NCBI GenBank assembly: GCA_937877715.1
Contig: CALEHW010000044.1
Location: 1-56,513 of the forward strand
Length of the DNA: 56,513 bases
DNA from: an uncultured Methylophaga sp.
Lineage (GTDB): Bacteria; Pseudomonadota; Gammaproteobacteria; GCF-002020875
Direction of reading: 5' to 3'
Position numbers and translations under genes: made by a program. Numbering within the stretch: the first letter of the stretch is position 1; the number at the start of each line of letters is the position of its first letter. The notes beneath the pieces are model-generated. The model was not told where the DNA came from, did no database searches, and saw only the letters and a list, made by a program, of their open reading frames with translations. Below are positions 19,458 through 56,365 of this stretch, piece by piece.

Positions 19458-21947
<2,490 letters not shown>

Positions 21948-22010: not shown

Positions 22011-23117
22011 TCAAGCGGTTATCGTCTGTTTTACGACTGTTGAAACGCCTCCATGTTCCACGTGGAACATCTCCAGATCTCTCTCATTCAACAGAGACAC
22101 ATCTCCCTCTGTTGTTGTGGCAAACACCTGGTGTCCACTATCTATCAGATACTCAAGAATGGTCAGACTGTTTTGGTGGTCCAGTTCAGAAAACATGTCG
22201 TCAAACAGCACGATGCCCTTTTTTCCGGTTTTCCTGTATAGGTGAGACAGTTGAGACAGATAAAGTCCAACAGATAGCAATTTGGCCTGCCCTCTAGATA
22301 AAACATTTTTGGCGACGCCGTCCCCACTCTTTATTGCCATATCGGCCTCATGTGGGCCCGATAGCGTGTGTCCAACCACCCTCTCCCTCTCAACCCCCTG
22401 CTCTAGCGTCTCACATAAAGTAGCCGACTCTCTCCACCCCCTACGATAACTGAACCCGACCTCGCCTTCTGATAGAGATCCCAATCTTGGTGATAGCTTC
22501 TGCTGGTAGAGCTCTGTTAGCTCTTCAAGATAATTTGCGCGATAGGATGAAATCTCCTCTCCAGCATCAGAGAGAGCTTTGTTCCAGTACGACATCTCGC
22601 TCTCTGAGAATTTTTTCCTCTTCAATAATGCATTTCGCTGTCTGAGATTTTTCTTATAGTTTCTGGTTGCCGACAAGAAGTTATGTTCCACGTGGAACAT
22701 CCCCCAGTCGAGAAATGATCTTCTGCCCCTTGGAGACCCCATCACAAGATTTATTGATTCCGGGGTTATTATCTGGATTGGCAGAATTTCTGCCGCCCTG
22801 GAGAGCTGCTTGATTGGAGAGCGGTCTATGTGGAGACGGTTACAGCTCTTTCCACGTTCCATGCCAACCGTCACTATCTGGCCAGACTCTGTCTCAATAT
22901 CTGCCGAGACAATCAGTGACCTCTCCCCTTTTTTTATGACTGATGATGTAGAGCTTGAGCGAAAGGATCTCCCAGTACCCAAAAGATAGATAGCCTCTAA
23001 AAGAGAGCTCTTGCCACTACCGTTCTGTCCTGAAATCAGATTGAAACCAGGTGATGGTTCAAGCTCGACATGAGAGATTATTCTACAATTTGAAACACGA
23101 AGTGATTTTATGGTCAC
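22011..23117 (-). CDS. recF: DNA replication and repair protein RecF
   Basis: RecF is an SMC-like ATPase that helps load RecA at gaps and restart replication. The 368 residues start with GTG at 23117. They show Walker A GQNGSGKSSLLEA (near residue 30), the signature LSRGQAKLLSVGLYLSQL, and Walker B IVLFDDMFSELD. Two identical parS palindromes lie inside the gene, and each is read in frame as the peptide MFHVEH (near residues 141 and 350). The second copy is within about 20 residues of the C terminus. RecF proteins do not normally share such a repeated peptide, so the DNA site probably dictates the protein sequence. It lies between dnaN and gyrB. Confidence 0.97.
   Translation of the reverse strand: MTIKSLRVSNCRIISHVELEPSPGFNLISGQNGSGKSSLLEAIYLLGTGRSFRSSSTSSVIKKGERSLIVSADIETESGQIVTVGMERGKSCNRLHIDRSPIKQLSRAAEILPIQIITPESINLVMGSPRGRRSFLDWGMFHVEHNFLSATRNYKKNLRQRNALLKRKKFSESEMSYWNKALSDAGEEISSYRANYLEELTELYQQKLSPRLGSLSEGEVGFSYRRGWRESATLCETLEQGVERERVVGHTLSGPHEADMAIKSGDGVAKNVLSRGQAKLLSVGLYLSQLSHLYRKTGKKGIVLFDDMFSELDHQNSLTILEYLIDSGHQVFATTTEGDVSLLNERDLEMFHVEHGGVSTVVKQTITA
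22054..22069. promoter_or_regulatory. parS: parS centromere site inside the 3' end of recF
   Basis: TGTTCCACGTGGAACA is a perfect 16-base palindrome (18 with the flanking A and T), matching the chromosomal parS type known from Pseudomonas (core GTTCCACGTGGAAC). ParB-family protein from the parAB genes at 41-43 kb should nucleate here. An identical copy lies 630 bases away. It is read in recF as MFHVEH. Confidence 0.92.
22684..22699. promoter_or_regulatory. parS: Second parS centromere site inside recF
   Basis: This is the same 18-base sequence as at 22053-22070, again a perfect palindrome and again in the frame that gives MFHVEH. Start-to-start spacing of the two sites is exactly 630 bases. 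Clustered parS sites close to the origin are the usual loading zone for ParB and SMC/MukBEF-mediated segregation. Confidence 0.92.
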
Positions 23118-23150: not shown

Positions 23151-24266
23151 CTAAAGCCTCATCGGCATCACCACAAACTTGTACTCCTCTCTGCCGCTAT
23201 CAGTGTGGATCAGACTGCTGCTGTTTTCATCTATAAAGTAGATCGTAACCTGCTCATCATCAATTACAGACAGAGCATCCATCATGTAGGCAGAGTTGAA
23301 TCCTATTTCCATCTCCTCCCCGCTATATGTAACTGAGGAGAGCTCCTCTTCGGCCTCCTCCTGCTCAGGATTGTTTGCATGGATGGTGACCGCTGTCTCG
23401 CTCATCGCCATACGAATCCCGCGATATTTCTCGTTTGAGAGGATTGAAACTCGACTGACCGCCCTTCTGAAAGCCTCATTATCGGTAACCAGAGTACGCT
23501 CCCCTTCCCTCGGTATCACCCGCTGGTAATCTGGAAAACGGCCATCAATCAGTTTTGTGGTCAGGGTCAGTTCCCCCAATACCACCTGAAGATGGTTGCT
23601 ACCCATGACTATTCTAACCGGATCATCACCATCATCCAGCAGCCGCATCAACTCCTGAACCGCCTTGCGAGGAACTATTACCTGCTTCTTCTCTCCATAA
23701 TCTCTATCCAGAGTACGACGACAAAAAGCCAATCGATGGCCATCGGTCGCAACAAGTCTCAACTCATTACCCTCAAGCTCAAGTAGTAATCCGTTCAGAT
23801 AGTATCTGACATCCTGCATTGCCATCGAGAACTGGCTCTTATGGAGCAGATTCCTTAAAACAGCACGGGAAAGCTCATCAATTACAGCAACCTCAGTTAT
23901 CTCATCCACCCGTGGAAACTCATCTGCAGGTAGTGTAGAGAGGGTAAATCTGCTTTTGCCAGAACGAATAGTTGCCCGATTACCGTCAACCTTGACCTTG
24001 ATATCTGATTGATCTGGCAATGCTTTTGAGAGGTCTGAGAACTTTCTTGCTGGAATGGTTGTTTTTCCAGTCTCTACAGGACCGTCCAATGGAATTGTTA
24101 TCTTTATCTCAACCTCAAGATCAGTTCCAATCAGAGTCAGCTCACTAGATTCTGTAACATCTACAAAGAGATGGGAGAGAATCGGGAGGGTCTGCCTTCT
24201 CTCAACAGCCCCACTGATAGACTGCAGTGGTCGTAGTAGATTTTCTCGTGAAACAGAAAATTGCAT
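23151..24266 (-). CDS. dnaN: DNA polymerase III beta subunit (sliding clamp)
   Basis: DnaN forms the dimeric ring that tethers DNA polymerase III to the template. The ATG at 24266 follows GGAG with an eight-base spacing and gives 371 residues; an in-frame TTG at 24272 would add two. The start MQFSVSRENLLRPLQSISG, RTLPILSHLF, and the C-terminal VMPMRL are typical of beta clamps. It lies between dnaA and recF on the same strand. The 256-base gap to dnaA contains two exact DnaA boxes. Confidence 0.97.
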   Translation of the reverse strand: MQFSVSRENLLRPLQSISGAVERRQTLPILSHLFVDVTESSELTLIGTDLEVEIKITIPLDGPVETGKTTIPARKFSDLSKALPDQSDIKVKVDGNRATIRSGKSRFTLSTLPADEFPRVDEITEVAVIDELSRAVLRNLLHKSQFSMAMQDVRYYLNGLLLELEGNELRLVATDGHRLAFCRRTLDRDYGEKKQVIVPRKAVQELMRLLDDGDDPVRIVMGSNHLQVVLGELTLTTKLIDGRFPDYQRVIPREGERTLVTDNEAFRRAVSRVSILSNEKYRGIRMAMSETAVTIHANNPEQEEAEEELSSVTYSGEEMEIGFNSAYMMDALSVIDDEQVTIYFIDENSSSLIHTDSGREEYKFVVMPMRL

Positions 24267-24522
24267 TTTCAAACTCCCTCTCTAGATAATAAATATTCTA
24301 TATATAAGATAGTAGTAGTTATAGTGTCGACATAAAACTGTTATAAACTGCGATTTTCTCATATTTTACAAACGATTACATTAATCCCAAAACTGTCCCA
24401 AACCATGAGACAAAACTGTCTCAAAACTGTGGATAACTTTTTCCAACAATGACTGTCTCACGATTCCCATAGGTTATCCACACTCTTTTTCACAACTTTT
24501 ACCACAAAACATGTATTGATCA
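24267..24522. other. dnaA-dnaN intergenic region with DnaA boxes (candidate oriC)
   Basis: This AT-rich gap has two exact 9-mer DnaA boxes (TTATCCACA), at 24474-24482 on the plus strand and 24428-24436 on the minus strand. A relaxed box TTTTTCACA lies at 24486-24494. The box-poor half nearest dnaN (24290-24380) is strongly AT-rich and could be an unwinding region. In several gammaproteobacteria such as Pseudomonas the origin lies beside dnaA, so this gap and the rpmH-dnaA gap are both candidates. The dnaN promoter must also be here, but I cannot pick one. Confidence 0.6.
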
Positions 24523-31032: not shown

Positions 31033-31110
31033 TCTATTAATCAAACAGTCCCCATAAAAACTCTTTACAAATCAACGCGCTGTTGATGATGCCGCCTTAT
31101 GAAAGTATAT

Positions 31111-31126
31111 TGGCATTGTTTTTGCA
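31111..31126 (+). promoter_or_regulatory. Sigma-54 promoter of the octaheme cytochrome gene
   Basis: TGGCATTGTTTTTGCA has the invariant GG and GC exactly ten bases apart and matches TGGCA and TTGCA of the consensus, with CG replaced by TT. Transcription would start near 31137, giving a 60-base leader before the ATG at 31197. It would require an AAA+ activator. NtrC is the only one encoded in this window, but no NtrC dyad is seen upstream. Confidence 0.72.
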
Positions 31127-31196
31127 TCATTACTTTGTAGGGGGAGATCCTGTATTTACAGAAATATCTATATTCCAGACTAAGAGGCTTAACACT

Positions 31197-32738
31197 ATGA
31201 AAGAATCAATTATCCAACGGCAAAAAACATTATTAAATATGTTGGTACTGCTGTTATGTGTCATCTCTACACCACTTTATGCTAGTGCGGTGGCGACATT
31301 TTTTGGTGATATTGAGACATCGAAAAAGCCAATGGATACTCTATACAGCACTGTAATGCCTATGGATCAACCAGTCAAAATCTCTAGGGGATTAATGCAT
31401 CTTAGCAAAGAGAGTGCCACCTGCGCCTCTTGCCATAAGGAGAAAAGTGCCGGTATATATGATCAGTGGGGGAAATCAAAACATTATGGTGCCAATGTAG
31501 GTTGCTATGAGTGCCACAAAGCTGAAAAAGGTGATAAAGATGCCATCATGCACAAGGACTTTGTGATCTCAATAATTGTCTCCCCCAAAGACTGTGCCCA
31601 ATGCCATGAGACTGAGGCTGAGGAATTTGATAAGTCTCATCATGCAACAGCAGGAAACATCTTAGGATCACTGGATAATGTGCTGGCAGAAGTGGTTGAA
31701 GGTGCTCCCACGTTAAATGGCTCTTCCCCTGTTACAACTGTTGGTTGTGCAGGTTGTCATGGTTCTATTGTGCGTGTAAATTCCGACGGCAGTCTGAATT
31801 CCAGTGGTTGGCCAAATACAGGTATTGGCCGCATCAATCCGGACGGCTCCAAAGGCTCTTGTTCTGCGTGCCATCTACGGCACAATTTTGATTCTGAGCA
31901 GGCCCGCCATCCAGACAACTGCGGCCGGTGCCATCTGGGGCCAGACCATCCTCAGAAAGAAATATATGAAGAGTCTGCGCATGGTGTTGCATTCCGTGCA
32001 CATGAGAGTGAAATGAATATGGATTCAGCAAAATGGGTAGTTGGTGAAGACTATAGTGCAGCACCTACCTGTGCGACTTGTCATATGTCAGCTACTCCAG
32101 ACTTACCTATTAGTCATGATATTGGTGGGCGAATCTCATGGAACTTGCGTGCACCGATATCTGCCAAGATTGATGCAAAAGCAATTAAGCAAGGTAAAGA
32201 AGTAAAACCTTGGCTACAGCGACGTAAGGATATGAAGAATGTCTGCCTAAACTGTCATGGCACCAGCACGATTGATAATCACTTCGAGCAGCTAGACTCA
32301 TTTATTAACCTTTACAATGATAAGTTTGCAATTCCAGCCAAGGCATTGGTTACCTCCATGTTAAAAAATGGACTGCTTGATAAAACTAAGTTTAATGAGG
32401 ACGTAGAGTGGACATGGTTCTATCTCTGGCACCATGAAGGACGTCGTGCTCGTCATGGCGCCGCAATGTTCGCGCCAGACTACGCTCATTGGGAAGGAAT
32501 GTATGAGATGGCACACCGTTTCTATATGGAGATGGTTCCACAGATCAAAGACCATATCCGCGATGCGCGAGCAGATGGAAATAATGTTGGTGCAGATAAA
32601 GTTGAAAAGCTCTTAAATGCGACACTTGAATCAGAAATGCACCGCTGGTTCCTTGGTAAACAGCCCCCAAGATTCTGGCGCCCCACTGATGATGATGATC
32701 ATGGCTTTGTGCTGAATAAAGGATCAATCAATAAGTAA
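31197..32738 (+). CDS. Octaheme c-type cytochrome, hydroxylamine oxidoreductase (HAO) family
   Basis: The ATG at 31197 gives 513 residues with a signal peptide (MLVLLLCVISTPLYASA, cleavage near residue 30), so it is periplasmic. Eight CxxCH motifs begin at residues 76, 103, 133, 184, 222, 242, 292 and 350. The spacing plus CSACHLRHNF, CGRCHLGPDHPQKEIYEESA and the C-terminal APDYAHWEGMYE (426-437) match the HAO family. Family members oxidise hydroxylamine or hydrazine, or run reductively on nitrite or hydroxylamine. Whether a tyrosine corresponds to the P460 cross-link of true HAO (candidates Tyr429, Tyr436) needs an alignment. It is expressed from a -24/-12 promoter and is followed by a c/b cytochrome that could exchange electrons with quinone. 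It is more AT-rich than its neighbours. Confidence 0.85.
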   Translation: MKESIIQRQKTLLNMLVLLLCVISTPLYASAVATFFGDIETSKKPMDTLYSTVMPMDQPVKISRGLMHLSKESATCASCHKEKSAGIYDQWGKSKHYGANVGCYECHKAEKGDKDAIMHKDFVISIIVSPKDCAQCHETEAEEFDKSHHATAGNILGSLDNVLAEVVEGAPTLNGSSPVTTVGCAGCHGSIVRVNSDGSLNSSGWPNTGIGRINPDGSKGSCSACHLRHNFDSEQARHPDNCGRCHLGPDHPQKEIYEESAHGVAFRAHESEMNMDSAKWVVGEDYSAAPTCATCHMSATPDLPISHDIGGRISWNLRAPISAKIDAKAIKQGKEVKPWLQRRKDMKNVCLNCHGTSTIDNHFEQLDSFINLYNDKFAIPAKALVTSMLKNGLLDKTKFNEDVEWTWFYLWHHEGRRARHGAAMFAPDYAHWEGMYEMAHRFYMEMVPQIKDHIRDARADGNNVGADKVEKLLNATLESEMHRWFLGKQPPRFWRPTDDDDHGFVLNKGSINK

Positions 32739-32754
32739 TCAATAGCACCAGGAT

Positions 32755-32780
32755 CTTTTCCCACCATGTGGTGGGAAGAG
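32755..32780 (+). other. Strong intergenic hairpin between the two cytochrome genes
   Basis: CTTTTCCCACCA and TGGTGGGAAGAG form a 12-base-pair stem with one wobble and a two-base centre, 16 bases after the octaheme cytochrome stop. Only GTTTTA follows, so termination would be weak. It is better explained as an mRNA-stabilising or attenuating element that sets the ratio of the periplasmic to the membrane cytochrome. Confidence 0.55.
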
Positions 32781-32842
32781 GTTTTATGGGTAGCTTTTGT
32801 AAAGTAATGGTGGTTGGTACAAACTTAAAAAAGGAATTCAAC

Positions 32843-34795
32843 ATGCGCATTCCCCGCCTTATTGTTGTTTCTATTGCTCTGGTCAACAGCCTCTTTTTTT
32901 TGATATTTGTAGAGGCAGTATCAGCAGAATCGTTTGCCGATGAGGAGTGTCAGGAATGTCATGGAGAGGCAGGTTTTAGTGTTCCATTAGGAGAATATGG
33001 AGAAGGAGCAAAAAAAGGTCTATTTGTTGATGATGGTTTTTTTAAAGAGAGCGTACATGGGGGGCTTCAATGTACAGGTTGCCATACTGATATTGAAGAA
33101 TTACCACACCGTAAAAAAAAACTTGGAGAGGTAAATTGTATAAGTTGCCATGAAAAATTGGCAGAAAATTTGGTACCTAATAAGAAACAGGCAAAATGGC
33201 TCCGGCCTAAACCACCGTTGGCTGTAAGTCATACGCGCGATTTCAAGCTTTCTGTTCATGCAAATAGGGATGTAGAAAACAATGCAACCTGTGCAACATG
33301 TCATACGGCACATTATGTATATAAAACAGATGATCCTCGTGCCAGTACATATCGCCTAAATTCTCCAGAGATGTGTGGGCGCTGTCATGGCAAGGCGCTT
33401 AGCGAGTATCGTTTGTCAATGCATGGTGCAAAGCTAAAGAGACCATGGAAGGGGGACTCCGCCACCTGTAGCGACTGTCACTCTTCACACAAAATTTCAG
33501 ACGTTAGCAAGCTTCCTGCTCATAGAGTGATGTCAGAAGGGTGTGGTAGTTGTCATGAAGATGAGCTGCGCGGCTATATGGTAAGCCCGCATGGACAGTT
33601 AGCATGGCATGGCAATACAGACGCACCAAAATGTGTTAGCTGCCATGATGGTCATCAAATTGTCCATGCTTCTCAGGTAGAATCACCGGTTAGCAACAAA
33701 AACAGGGTGAAAACCTGTCAGAAATGTCATGAGAGTGCGAACGAACAGTTTGTAAAATACCAGCCTCACGCAACCACAAGTAATTTTAAAAAACATCCAG
33801 GTCTATGGATATTGGGCAAGGGAATGGGTGGGCTGATTGTATTGGTGATTCTCTTTTTCTATTTACACTCGGTGCTTTGGTTTTGGCGTGAAAAAAAAGA
33901 GCGTCCGGTTATTTATCAGACACACAAGTCGTTTAGATATCCGGTACGGATCAAACCCAAAAAACATCATAGTGGAATACATTTCCGTCGCTTTAGCTGG
34001 TATTGGCGCATCAATCACTGGCTTCTTGCGCTGTCACTCATGTCCCTGGTGTTTTCTGGCATGGTAGTGATGTATGCCACCACTGGATGGGCCACAGCAG
34101 TGGTGGATTGGTTGGGAGGAACAAATATCTTGACCGCGATTCATCATGTTGTGGGAGTCATTTTTTTACTGACTATCTTTGGGCATGGAGTTGTTGTGTT
34201 GATACAGCTATTGGCAGATAAGGATTTTGATTGGTTTGGGCCTGATTCACTGCTTCCACGTAAGCAGGACTGGTTGGATATGAAGGGACAGTTTCGGTGG
34301 TATTTTGGTAAAGGGCCTCAGCCGAGATTTGATCGTTGGACCTATTGGGAGAAGTTTGATTATTGGGCAGTGTATTGGGGTGCGCTGGTGATTGGTGTAT
34401 CTGGAATGTTGCTCTGGTTTGCTGAGGATATAGGCCAAATTTTGCCAGGATGGATTTTTAATTTAGCTATCGTGGCTCATGGGCTGGAGGCATTTTTGGC
34501 GGTAATGACGCTATTTGTTGTCCATTTTTTTAATAACCATTTTAGGCCATCCAAATTCCCGCTAGATACTGTGATGTTTACAGGCTCATGGGATCTTGCA
34601 GAATTTAAAGAAGAGCGCCCAGCTGAGTATGAGCGACTCAAAAATAGTGGCGATCTTGAGAAATATTTGGTTGCACCACCTTCTAGAGAGTGGAATTTCA
34701 TATCCCACCTTCTGGGCTTTGTTTTGCTGGGTATCGGGTTGATATTGCTGGTGGTAGTTATGAGTGGCTTTCTTGCAAGTGGACTTTATTGGTAG
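32843..34795 (+). CDS. Multiheme cytochrome c fused to membrane cytochrome b
   Basis: The ATG at 32843 follows AAGGA and gives 650 residues. A signal peptide is followed by nine CxxCH motifs starting at residues 36, 77, 99, 150, 178, 209, 234, 264 and 292. A membrane segment (about 328-349) leads to a cytochrome b561/formate-dehydrogenase-gamma-like domain with further helices near 393-415, 432-456, 508-528, 540-563 and 620-645. Haem b ligand candidates are His392, His434/435, His448, His546 and His561. The architecture is a quinone-linked electron wire: periplasmic c-hemes joined to a transmembrane b domain. As the neighbour of the octaheme cytochrome it is its most likely redox partner; the direction of flow cannot be told. 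Some of its internal repeats resemble cytochrome c3/c7 units. Confidence 0.82.
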   Translation: MRIPRLIVVSIALVNSLFFLIFVEAVSAESFADEECQECHGEAGFSVPLGEYGEGAKKGLFVDDGFFKESVHGGLQCTGCHTDIEELPHRKKKLGEVNCISCHEKLAENLVPNKKQAKWLRPKPPLAVSHTRDFKLSVHANRDVENNATCATCHTAHYVYKTDDPRASTYRLNSPEMCGRCHGKALSEYRLSMHGAKLKRPWKGDSATCSDCHSSHKISDVSKLPAHRVMSEGCGSCHEDELRGYMVSPHGQLAWHGNTDAPKCVSCHDGHQIVHASQVESPVSNKNRVKTCQKCHESANEQFVKYQPHATTSNFKKHPGLWILGKGMGGLIVLVILFFYLHSVLWFWREKKERPVIYQTHKSFRYPVRIKPKKHHSGIHFRRFSWYWRINHWLLALSLMSLVFSGMVVMYATTGWATAVVDWLGGTNILTAIHHVVGVIFLLTIFGHGVVVLIQLLADKDFDWFGPDSLLPRKQDWLDMKGQFRWYFGKGPQPRFDRWTYWEKFDYWAVYWGALVIGVSGMLLWFAEDIGQILPGWIFNLAIVAHGLEAFLAVMTLFVVHFFNNHFRPSKFPLDTVMFTGSWDLAEFKEERPAEYERLKNSGDLEKYLVAPPSREWNFISHLLGFVLLGIGLILLVVVMSGFLASGLYW

Positions 34796-41168: not shown

Positions 41169-41984
41169 TTGAGCAAGATTTACGCTGTGGCGAACCAGAA
41201 AGGGGGCGTTGGCAAGACCACCACCGCCGTCAATCTGGCGGCCTCTCTTGGATATTTTGACGAGAGGGTGCTGCTTGTCGACCTTGATCCACAGGGTAAT
41301 GCGACCACAGGTAGTGGTATTGACAAGCGGGAAGTTGAGTGGAGCGGTGTTGACGTATTGCTGGAGGATGTCTCCATCCGGCAGGCGATACAGAGTACGG
41401 ATGGGGGCGGCTATGATCTGCTGGCAGCAAACGGAGATCTGACTGCAGCAGAGGTGGAGCTGATGTCTGCAGAAGACCGTTTCCACCGCCTCTCTAGGGC
41501 TCTGGGCGGGATTTCCGGTAACTATGACTATATCTTTATCGACTGCCCGCCAACTCTGAATATCCTCACCCTGAACGCCTTCGTCGCCTCGCAGGGAGTG
41601 ATTGTTCCGCTGCAGTGTGAGTACTACGCACTGGAGGGGCTGAGCGCCCTGATGGAGACTATGGAGCGAGTACGCGAGACCCAGAACCCCAACCTGCGGC
41701 TGCAGGGTATCGTGCGCACCATGTATGATGCGAGAAACCGTCTCTCGATAGAGGTCTCGGAGCAGCTGCTCACCCACTTTGGTGACCAGGTCTATGAGAC
41801 TGTAATTCCGAGAAACGTAACCTTGGCAGAGGCGCCAAGTTATGGGCGTCCAATCATCTACTATGCCCCCTCATCCAGAGGAGCGTATGCTTATGTTGAT
41901 CTGGCGGCAGAGATGCTTGATAAGGCTGAGAGGGTAAAGCAGGCAGAGAAGGTAACAGAAGAGAGCAATAATGGAGTTGAATAA
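41169..41984 (+). CDS. parA: Chromosome partitioning ATPase ParA
   Basis: ParA positions the origin by moving ParB-parS complexes. The 271 residues start at a TTG (41169), giving SKIYAVANQKGGVGKTTTAV with the deviant Walker A KGGVGKTT, followed by DLDPQGNATTGSG and the Walker B-like YIFIDCPPTLN. It is chromosomal in type: short N terminus with no DNA-binding extension. parB follows directly, and the cognate parS sites lie in recF about 19 kb away. Confidence 0.95.
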   Translation: MSKIYAVANQKGGVGKTTTAVNLAASLGYFDERVLLVDLDPQGNATTGSGIDKREVEWSGVDVLLEDVSIRQAIQSTDGGGYDLLAANGDLTAAEVELMSAEDRFHRLSRALGGISGNYDYIFIDCPPTLNILTLNAFVASQGVIVPLQCEYYALEGLSALMETMERVRETQNPNLRLQGIVRTMYDARNRLSIEVSEQLLTHFGDQVYETVIPRNVTLAEAPSYGRPIIYYAPSSRGAYAYVDLAAEMLDKAERVKQAEKVTEESNNGVE

Positions 41985-42890
41985 GTGATGTCGGCAAGAA
42001 AGGGCGGATTGGGACGAGGATTGGATTCACTACTGGGGGCGACCAAACAGTCGAAGGTCTCAAACAGCCCAAGTAGTGCAGTTGTGGTGGAGGATGGGGC
42101 ACGCTCCACGACACCGGGCGCATCCCTGAAGAGTCTGCCGGTTGATTTGCTGCAGCGGGGACAATATCAGCCGCGGCGCGACATGAACCAGGAGGCCCTG
42201 GAGGAGCTCTCTAACTCAATCCGTGCGCAGGGGGTTATCCAGCCTATTGTTGTGCGTCCTATTGGAGAGAGTCGTTATGAGATAGTTGCCGGGGAGCGGC
42301 GTTGGCGCGCGGCACAGATGGCCGGGCTGCAGGAGATTCCTGTAGTACTCAAGGAGGTTTCAGATCAGGTCGCGATGGCGATGGCACTGATTGAGAATAT
42401 CCAGCGTGAGGATCTGAACCCCATTGAGGAGGCGGTTGCCCTGCAGCGTCTAATCAAGGAGTTTGGGCTAACCCAGCAGGAGGCTGCGGATGCGGTTGGG
42501 CGCTCCCGCTCATCGGTAACCAATATGTTGCGGTTGCTGAACTTGAATGCCGAGGTAGGCCAGCTACTGGAGAAGGGGCGGCTGGAGATGGGGCATGCGC
42601 GTGCATTGCTGGCGCTGGAGGGTGAGCGGCAGAGTGAGGCGGCAAAACAGGTGCTATTGTTGGGGCTCTCTGTTCGGGAGACCGAGAAGCTGGTTCGAAA
42701 GATGTTACAGCCACCGAGAAAAAAAGTGGTGGACAAAAATAACCCTGATGTATTGCGGCTACAGGATCAATTATCAGAAAAATTGGGGGCAGCAGTCACT
42801 ATTCAACAGAATAGCAAGGGGCGAGGAAAGCTTACCATTCAATACAACTCTCTAGATGAGCTTGATGGAATTCTTGAGCATATCCGGTAG
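41985..42890 (+). CDS. parB: Chromosome partitioning protein ParB
   Basis: ParB is the CTPase that binds parS, spreads along DNA and interacts with ParA. The start is GTG at 41985 or ATG at 41988. The N terminus RKGGLGRGLDSLLG is typical of the ParA-contact region. GQYQPRRDMNQEALEELSNS, GERRWRAAQMAGLQEIPVV and the helix-turn-helix LTQQEAADAVGRSRSSVTN-M follow. The C-terminal dimer domain ends LDGILEHIR. It is 301 residues long. The two perfect parS palindromes in recF are its expected targets. Confidence 0.95.
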   Translation: MMSARKGGLGRGLDSLLGATKQSKVSNSPSSAVVVEDGARSTTPGASLKSLPVDLLQRGQYQPRRDMNQEALEELSNSIRAQGVIQPIVVRPIGESRYEIVAGERRWRAAQMAGLQEIPVVLKEVSDQVAMAMALIENIQREDLNPIEEAVALQRLIKEFGLTQQEAADAVGRSRSSVTNMLRLLNLNAEVGQLLEKGRLEMGHARALLALEGERQSEAAKQVLLLGLSVRETEKLVRKMLQPPRKKVVDKNNPDVLRLQDQLSEKLGAAVTIQQNSKGRGKLTIQYNSLDELDGILEHIR

Positions 42891-54922: not shown

Positions 54923-56365
54923 TTAATGAGAGTTTTTGGCTTCATGTTCTGCGCGAAGCTGTCCTGCCTCCTCTAGGATATTATTTACCGCAGTATTTAG
55001 TGGAGCCCATCCATACCAGTGCATATAGTCATTACTTGCGTGGAATGCACCCTGGAAGGTGCGTTGCCTGTACTCAAGCATAATCAGGTATAGCTCCTGC
55101 TCAATATTGGTTTTGGCATCATAATATTGCAGCAGGTCTGGCGCATATTCCCATCCTTCAGGTTTTTGCAGAATACCATCTCTGTATAGCCCTTGCACAG
55201 CCTGAATGGCCTGTGCAAAACGGTGGTCAGCCTGCTGAATAGTGTCATCCGATGCCTTGAAGAAATCATTTACATATTGATTGCTATGGCATTCATTACA
55301 TGTCTTTTTCATGTCGCGACGTAGTTTGTTGAACTCGTCGGGGCCGCGTGCAGCACGCCCTTGAACCACAATTTCAACAAAGCGCTTAGTTGGCTGTAGG
55401 GATGCATCTAGTATACCGGCCGCCTGCAGGATAATGGCTCTGTCAAATGTCCACTGTGGATTATCATCCAAGTCATCAAAATGACCTGTTGGTAGTAATG
55501 CAGCAAGTTTGGTTAGTGGTTCCTTCAGGCTTGGTGCTACATCAATTAAAGCCAGCACATTATCCTTGGTAGGGATGCGTAGTCCAAGGAAGCCCCATGG
55601 GGTAGATACATTATGGTTGCCATCAACCATATGGCATGTCTGACATGTTGGGGCGCGTCCATCAGTATCGCCACCTTGATTTTCTATTCCCCAGATAACT
55701 CCGTGCTTGGAGGAAGTAAACATTTCCCATTGAGGGTGATCAAAGCCCATATGGCAGTTGGAGCATGCGCGTGGGTCGTTGGCCTCATCCTTACGGAAGG
55801 TATGTCGGGTATGGCATGCATCACATTGAGCGTTACCATAACGATACTCCGACTCCTCTTTGCCGCCATCATATTTTAACTCGGCATCCATATTACCCTG
55901 CGACACGCCAAGCAGTCCTTTTTTGCCAAGTTTGTGGCAGCCTGAACAGCCACGATATCCTTGACCAACAATTGATTTGGGTTGGTTGTGCCATGCAATT
56001 TGAGTTTTTTGTGCCATCCATGCAAGATTATGCTTTCCGGATCGATATTGTTTAAACTGTTTCTTGTGACATTCGCCGCAGACATCGGCAGTTGGCATCT
56101 CGGCCTTTGAATAGTCCGTGTTTGTAGTATGCCCCTCTCCATGGCAATCATGGCAGACAACTTCATCCTCTTGGTTGTGTGCATTGGCCATGGGGCTGTC
56201 AAGATGTTGTTTGACAATCCCGGGAGTCACGTTGTAGTGGCATCCAATGCACTTGGCATTCAGCATGCGGTCTTCGTCTTCGACATCTCTGCTGCTAGCA
56301 GAGGCTATGGCCGAAACAAATAGCAATAACAGCATGGTAGCTATATTTATGGTTTTATATTGCAT
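54923..56365 (-). CDS. Second octaheme c-type cytochrome, HAO family
   Basis: The ATG at 56365 follows GGAGG and gives 480 residues with a signal peptide (IATMLLLLFVSAIASA). Eight CxxCH motifs begin at residues 39, 71, 96, 140, 181, 201, 241 and 356. CDACHTRHTFRKDEANDPRA, MGFDHPQWEMFTSSKHG and the C-terminal NDYMHWYGWAPL (445-456) mark it as a paralogue of the cytochrome at 31197. It is not an MccA-type sulfite reductase because all eight motifs are ordinary CxxCH and none is CX15CH. Where the first paralogue has YAHWEGMYE, this one has YMHWYGWAP, so the second tyrosine is a tryptophan. Substrate is unknown. It has a sigma-70 type promoter and is followed by a periplasmic prolyl isomerase. 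Confidence 0.85.
   Translation of the reverse strand: MQYKTINIATMLLLLFVSAIASASSRDVEDEDRMLNAKCIGCHYNVTPGIVKQHLDSPMANAHNQEDEVVCHDCHGEGHTTNTDYSKAEMPTADVCGECHKKQFKQYRSGKHNLAWMAQKTQIAWHNQPKSIVGQGYRGCSGCHKLGKKGLLGVSQGNMDAELKYDGGKEESEYRYGNAQCDACHTRHTFRKDEANDPRACSNCHMGFDHPQWEMFTSSKHGVIWGIENQGGDTDGRAPTCQTCHMVDGNHNVSTPWGFLGLRIPTKDNVLALIDVAPSLKEPLTKLAALLPTGHFDDLDDNPQWTFDRAIILQAAGILDASLQPTKRFVEIVVQGRAARGPDEFNKLRRDMKKTCNECHSNQYVNDFFKASDDTIQQADHRFAQAIQAVQGLYRDGILQKPEGWEYAPDLLQYYDAKTNIEQELYLIMLEYRQRTFQGAFHASNDYMHWYGWAPLNTAVNNILEEAGQLRAEHEAKNSH

Follow-up and report, generated by a model that had tools for sequence, protein, structure and literature searches.

The recF gene of an uncultured Methylophaga sp. 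spells the hexapeptide MFHVEH at two distant positions using the same 18 bases, raising the question of whether a protein motif or a DNA site is maintained there. In the stretch of DNA analysed (the window, 56,513 nucleotides), two perfect palindromes ATGTTCCACGTGGAACAT lie 630 bp apart, a spacing that is a multiple of three, and both are in frame in recF on the minus strand (Table 1). The coordinates and the ORF confirm an earlier note on this DNA, which had described an 18-base palindrome occurring twice, 630 bases apart and in one frame, and yielding MFHVEH twice. We consider it highly probable that these palindromes represent chromosomal parS sites inside recF, some 3 kb away from the presumed origin, forming an inherited pair selected as DNA with the hexapeptide as a by-product.

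Table 1. Location of the recF palindromes, the flanking genes and the parAB operon in the window.
Feature	Position	Strand	Evidence or remark
gyrB, recF neighbour	19458..21905	-	ORF; named from sequence and gene order
recF	22011..23117	-	ORF; both sites in frame; TIGR00611 336 bits, cut-off 172
parS site B, ATGTTCCACGTGGAACAT	22053..22070		RecF residues 350-355 MFHVEH; predicted C-terminal strand
parS site A, ATGTTCCACGTGGAACAT	22683..22700		RecF residues 140-145 MFHVEH; predicted helix end
dnaN (sliding clamp), recF neighbour	23151..24272	-	ORF; named from sequence and gene order
dnaA	24523..25872	-	ORF; named from translation and gene order
parA, partition ATPase (Soj/ParA type)	41169..41984	+	ORF; ParA-family matches under curated cut-offs; directly upstream of parB
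parB, parS-binding protein	41985..42890	+	TIGR00180 202 bits, cut-off 58; HTH alignment

A palindrome pair near the presumed origin

The identity of RecF is supported by a curated profile whose cut-off is exceeded, and the two copies within the gene are perfect representatives of the 14-16 bp parS palindrome of type TGTTNCACGTGNAACA. The 14-base core GTTNCACGTGNAAC is found in the window at sites A and B only, and not one of 100 dinucleotide shuffles of the window contained even a single core. The pair is located approximately 3 kb from dnaA and the presumed origin beside it, on the same contig. Moreover, the window holds a ParA/ParB operon, as the earlier note had stated, with ParB above the curated TIGR00180 cut-off. 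ParB has both motifs of its parS-binding domain, GRSR and GHAR (HTH alignment, residue numbering of PMC7383237), and by motif reading they match the places of R173 and G201 in Caulobacter numbering. Elsewhere in the window, three CxxCH-rich ORFs (31083-32738, 32768-34795 and 54923-56365) apparently encode cytochromes c of the multihaem type, and one of these also has a portion resembling a membrane cytochrome b.

The assembly (1.89 Mb, 74 contigs, 99.8% complete) contains four cores. The earlier note had proposed a genome-wide parS count, and this count returns two cores outside the gene, located on contigs C35 and C73, in addition to the recF pair, which alone is close to the presumed origin. 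The third core, TGTTCCACGTGAAACA (L001:1501-1516; G000:C35:9135-9150), is intergenic on a 21.9-kb phage-like contig, flanked by a gene for a major head protein (phrog_3437, E 5e-71) on one side and an ORF resembling capsid-assembly genes on the other, and this contig may be a phage or prophage equipped with the centromere site of its host. The fourth, GTTCCACGTGGAAC (L493:1501-1514; G000:C73:10026-10039), is spanned by no long ORF and is apparently intergenic.

Conservation across the Gammaproteobacteria

RecF was compared across genomes drawn evenly from the Gammaproteobacteria regardless of the motif, complemented by a whole-phylum draw and E. coli K-12, with the ParB status of each genome taken from searches of those same genomes. 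Genomes reached by the motif alone (L063-L142 and a few pattern-only genomes) were left out of the counts, and the RecF alignment was made with groups separated. Retrieval of RecF is biased to query-like sequences, with the best-scoring half over-represented and the lower-scoring half also sampled.

Among the 252 ParB-positive gammaproteobacteria with a recF sequence, a perfect 14-bp core is present at both homologous positions in 171, at A in 200, at B in 193 and at one or both in 222, and 237 have a core within two mismatches at one or both positions. The distance between A and B ranges from 597 to 669 bases and is a multiple of three without exception; an early scan of 114 relatives likewise recovered site pairs 606-669 bases apart in RecF frames in many families. 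Both recF sites are lost in 15 of the 252, thus recF is not the sole possible place. Outside the class, none of the 36 ParB-positive genomes of other Pseudomonadota classes has a core at either recF position. The earlier note had regarded two in-frame copies as notable: the sites are real, however they are no oddity of this genome, as the double site is the norm of the class and is published for P. aeruginosa. The pair in this Methylophaga sp. accordingly adds an example to a known kind of site, with the class-wide case apparently little-noticed.

Codon usage at the two sites

To separate DNA from peptide we turned to the ParB-positive RecFs that keep.FHV[EK]., with expected codon frequencies derived from those same genes (roughly a third to 60%). 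At site A, histidine is encoded by CAC in 205 of 207 (89.0 expected), valine by GTG in 205 of 207 (69.3 expected) and glutamate by GAA in 175 of 176 (93.1 expected), with lysine as AAA in 31 of 31; where the first residue is valine, it is GTG in 102 of 102 (33.1 expected). Site B behaves similarly (CAC 196/207, GTG 205/207, GAA 162/163, AAA 44/44). The earlier note had named relatives with the same peptide in palindrome-breaking codons as the finding that would speak against it; the opposite was found, and such near-invariant codons where the peptide is kept support its proposal that a DNA centromere site shapes a protein. Indeed, when 165 RecF columns are ordered by codon excess, the first seven all belong to the sites (z 11.3 to 18.1), and no column elsewhere exceeds 8.4.

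The flanking residues show the same signature. Residue 1 of perfect sites is restricted to M, V, L, T, A, S, R, W, Q and K, a chemically mixed set that is always encoded by an NNG codon, and residue 6 to H, P, Q, R and L, exactly the CNN family. Furthermore, the choice between Glu and Lys is tied to the silent base of the Phe codon, lysine at site A occurring in 1 of 105 sequences with TTC and 28 of 95 with TTT, as expected since the palindrome requires such pairing (Fisher p 2e-9 at A and 1e-6 at B, uncorrected for kinship; the trend persists in GC3 thirds). Mixed sites are mostly found in the Glu-giving orientation, 67 to 1 at A and 54 to 9 at B, despite the expectation that reverse complements look alike to a ParB dimer, suggesting that some protein preference remains. 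Aggregated, there is selection at the DNA level across relatives, and judging from the codons it is the DNA rather than the peptide that is conserved.

Could FHVE nevertheless be a functional RecF peptide motif, with the palindrome as mere back-translation? An alignment of 71 sequences shows F141, F351 and V353 conserved to 90% or more, the F-x-V strand motif at site B is present in other classes too, and RecF favours E over K where the palindrome permits both, and the influence is hence two-way. The codon fixation however far exceeds what the peptide needs, E. coli and other ParB-less RecFs manage without FHVE, and one motif can vanish while the other persists. In the predicted RecF structure (mean pLDDT 94.4), site A spans the junction where one helix (129-143) finishes and the following one begins, and site B falls within a strand (348-354); one hexapeptide in two predicted folds argues against a common protein role. 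In P. aeruginosa, synonymous mutation of the recF sites lowers ParB binding, and parS2 alone is enough for segregation (PMC4368675). With codons fixed beyond the peptide and ParB-less RecFs lacking it, we rejected the peptide motif as very unlikely.

Formation of RNA hairpins in the recF message was also considered, as both palindromes fold with 7-bp stems and a 4-nt loop (z -1.9 and -3.6 versus shuffles). The four loop bases are however conserved like the stem (0.95-1.00), the outer pairs are not kept (Watson-Crick 2-17 in 55% and 77%, 1-18 in 29% and 39%), absence of the sites accompanies absence of ParB, and no stem-keeping compensatory change that breaks CACGTG has been seen among ParB-positive relatives so far. 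With a loop as conserved as the stem and outer pairs unkept, this explanation was rejected as exceedingly improbable. The unusually good RNA fold of the stretch around site A (22668-22715; z -3.6) probably results incidentally from the palindrome and the adjoining sequence.

Loss of ParB and decay of the sites

We then considered lineages in which the chromosomal partition system is missing. E. coli has the homologous gene and positions but no parS: its RecF (NC_000913 b3700) reads CFHNEP and MFTVEK, with 4 and 3 mismatches to the core, and its family is devoid of chromosomal parAB (PMC4368675). Three families (f183, f168 and f50) have no chromosomal-type ParB, with no match or weak plasmid-like ones; no perfect core was found in their recF genes, and neither the core nor the near variant GTTYCAYRTGRAAC was found genome-wide in seven searched members. 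Two reduced, single-contig, ParB-less genomes (G176 and G269) retain, at both positions, near-sites that deviate by one or two substitutions, the changes including silent ones (CAC to CAT, GTG to GTA), and a ParB-positive relative (G032) has both sites intact.

Thus, in ParB-less lineages the sites are mostly lost or decaying and the residues changed. A few genomes scored as ParB-less nevertheless have sites: G220 has one, and G363, G382, G299, G249 and G135 are probably incompletely assembled. When ParB loss was compared with site loss on the tree, 2.2 of 4 pairs agreed and none opposed, a test of low power given only about five ParB changes, all of them losses.

Number and placement of cores

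Across 341 ParB-positive genomes of the class, two cores per genome is the most frequent count (204 genomes), followed by one (46), three (44), none (35) and more (12), using a strict core that misses departing sites such as P. aeruginosa parS5 to parS10; a reversed control pattern is mostly absent. Of the 465 cores in the 231 of these genomes for which recF was available, 372 occupy position A or B, and 128 of the 162 genomes with both sites have no further core. Where one site is lost, a second core often lies in another part of recF or shortly downstream (G014, G083, G110, G239, G383, G337 and others), and the 14 genomes searched from the group in which both recF sites are lost have cores elsewhere or centre variants. 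That the recF sites here are decayed or chance parS without a role, the work being done by others such as the C35 and C73 cores, is extremely unlikely, considering that both are perfect 18-bp palindromes, that the class-wide pattern shows maintained selection, and that the C35 core is on a phage-like contig.

Other arrangements were also noted. One genome has three parS cores with an exact 62-base period (G309:C157:5798-5935) and, on a different contig, a further two separated by 100 bases, and two genomes are core-rich (G121 with 12, G261 with 8), possibly representing parS arrays. In families f142, f155 and f83 (G147, G246, G325, G388, G160, G257, G087 and G294) the RecF match is absent or very weak, and there is instead a close parS core pair, 25-106 bases apart.

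Altered centres and ParB

In four genomes (G029, G326, G183 and G102) both copies have an identical altered centre (CACATG/CATGTG or CATATG), and in three of them, G029, G326 and G102, RecF has changed from V to M at both sites. Residues 170-172 of ParB touch parS in the Caulobacter structure (PMC7383237), and in a 30-ParB alignment G-[KR]-S is replaced at these positions in 7 of 12 altered-centre lineages versus 0 of 18 with CACGTG (Fisher p 4e-4, rising to 1e-3 when one family is counted a single time); the comparison was post hoc, chosen after the data were seen, and is hence a lead only. Separately, a 0.9-Mb genome (G036; L284, L488) has TGTTCTACGTAGAACA at site A, a perfect palindrome with altered centre, and TGTTCCACGTAGAACA at site B, and its ParB has GKPR in place of GRSR.

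It is a real possibility, held tentatively, that the recF pair is the ancestral principal centromere of the Gammaproteobacteria, under selection to keep roughly two sites as a set and co-evolving with ParB, such that both copies change together, RecF often from V to M, and ParB often at 170-172. If so, RecF would document, in readable form, the specificity of the centromere throughout the class. The altered-centre lineages offer ready natural pairs for studying joint change of ParB and site.

Proposed role and relation to known systems

Position, frame, conservation, codon-level selection and the association with ParB are observed features of the recF pair, and from here we infer ParB binding and a segregation function in this Methylophaga sp. 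ParB from the parAB operon 19 kb away would load on the recF palindromes, spread over the neighbouring DNA and, together with ParA, separate newly copied origins. The pair would have arisen in or near the gammaproteobacterial ancestor and been kept by selection on the DNA, thereby binding RecF to [NNG]-F-H-V-[E/K]-[CNN] at both places, with MFHVEH a trace of the centromere rather than a repeated protein motif.

The closest known system is that of P. aeruginosa, where parS1 and parS2 are within recF, about 4 kb from oriC, and share gene and core sequences with the sites described here (PMC3909081, PMC5521831, PMC4368675). These are TGTTCCACGTGGAACC and TGTTCCACGTGGAACA, respectively (Jecz et al., PMC4368675), and with ParB in excess expression around them drops (PMC5521831). 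Site A here ends in CAT (H), whereas parS1 ends in CC (P), and P. aeruginosa has ten parS, including the intergenic parS3 and parS4, in contrast to four cores in the present assembly. Large genomes of family f159, probably Pseudomonas-like, have the same 630-bp spacing as here. Bacillus subtilis also has a parS in coding sequence near the origin, inside spo0J, differing in gene, in being a single site and in phylum. Among the papers retrieved on parS with recF or with synonymous codons, only the Pseudomonas work was relevant, and no paper on a class-wide recF pair or its protein consequence was found (the survey of Livny et al. 2007 being outside this scope).

The kind of site is ordinary, a parS near the origin in a gene known from Pseudomonas; it is the class-wide conservation, the codons and the pair usually being the complete set of cores that lift it above a single-genome curiosity. 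It provides a clean, countable case in which, throughout a bacterial class, the sequence of a protein is dictated by a DNA-binding site: chemically unlike residues are tolerated at the site flanks provided that their codons spell the centromere. The data moreover suggest that many Gammaproteobacteria have their sole parS sites inside one gene, recF. Deletion of recF would in such species also remove the centromere, and recF phenotypes there would need silent-recoding controls.
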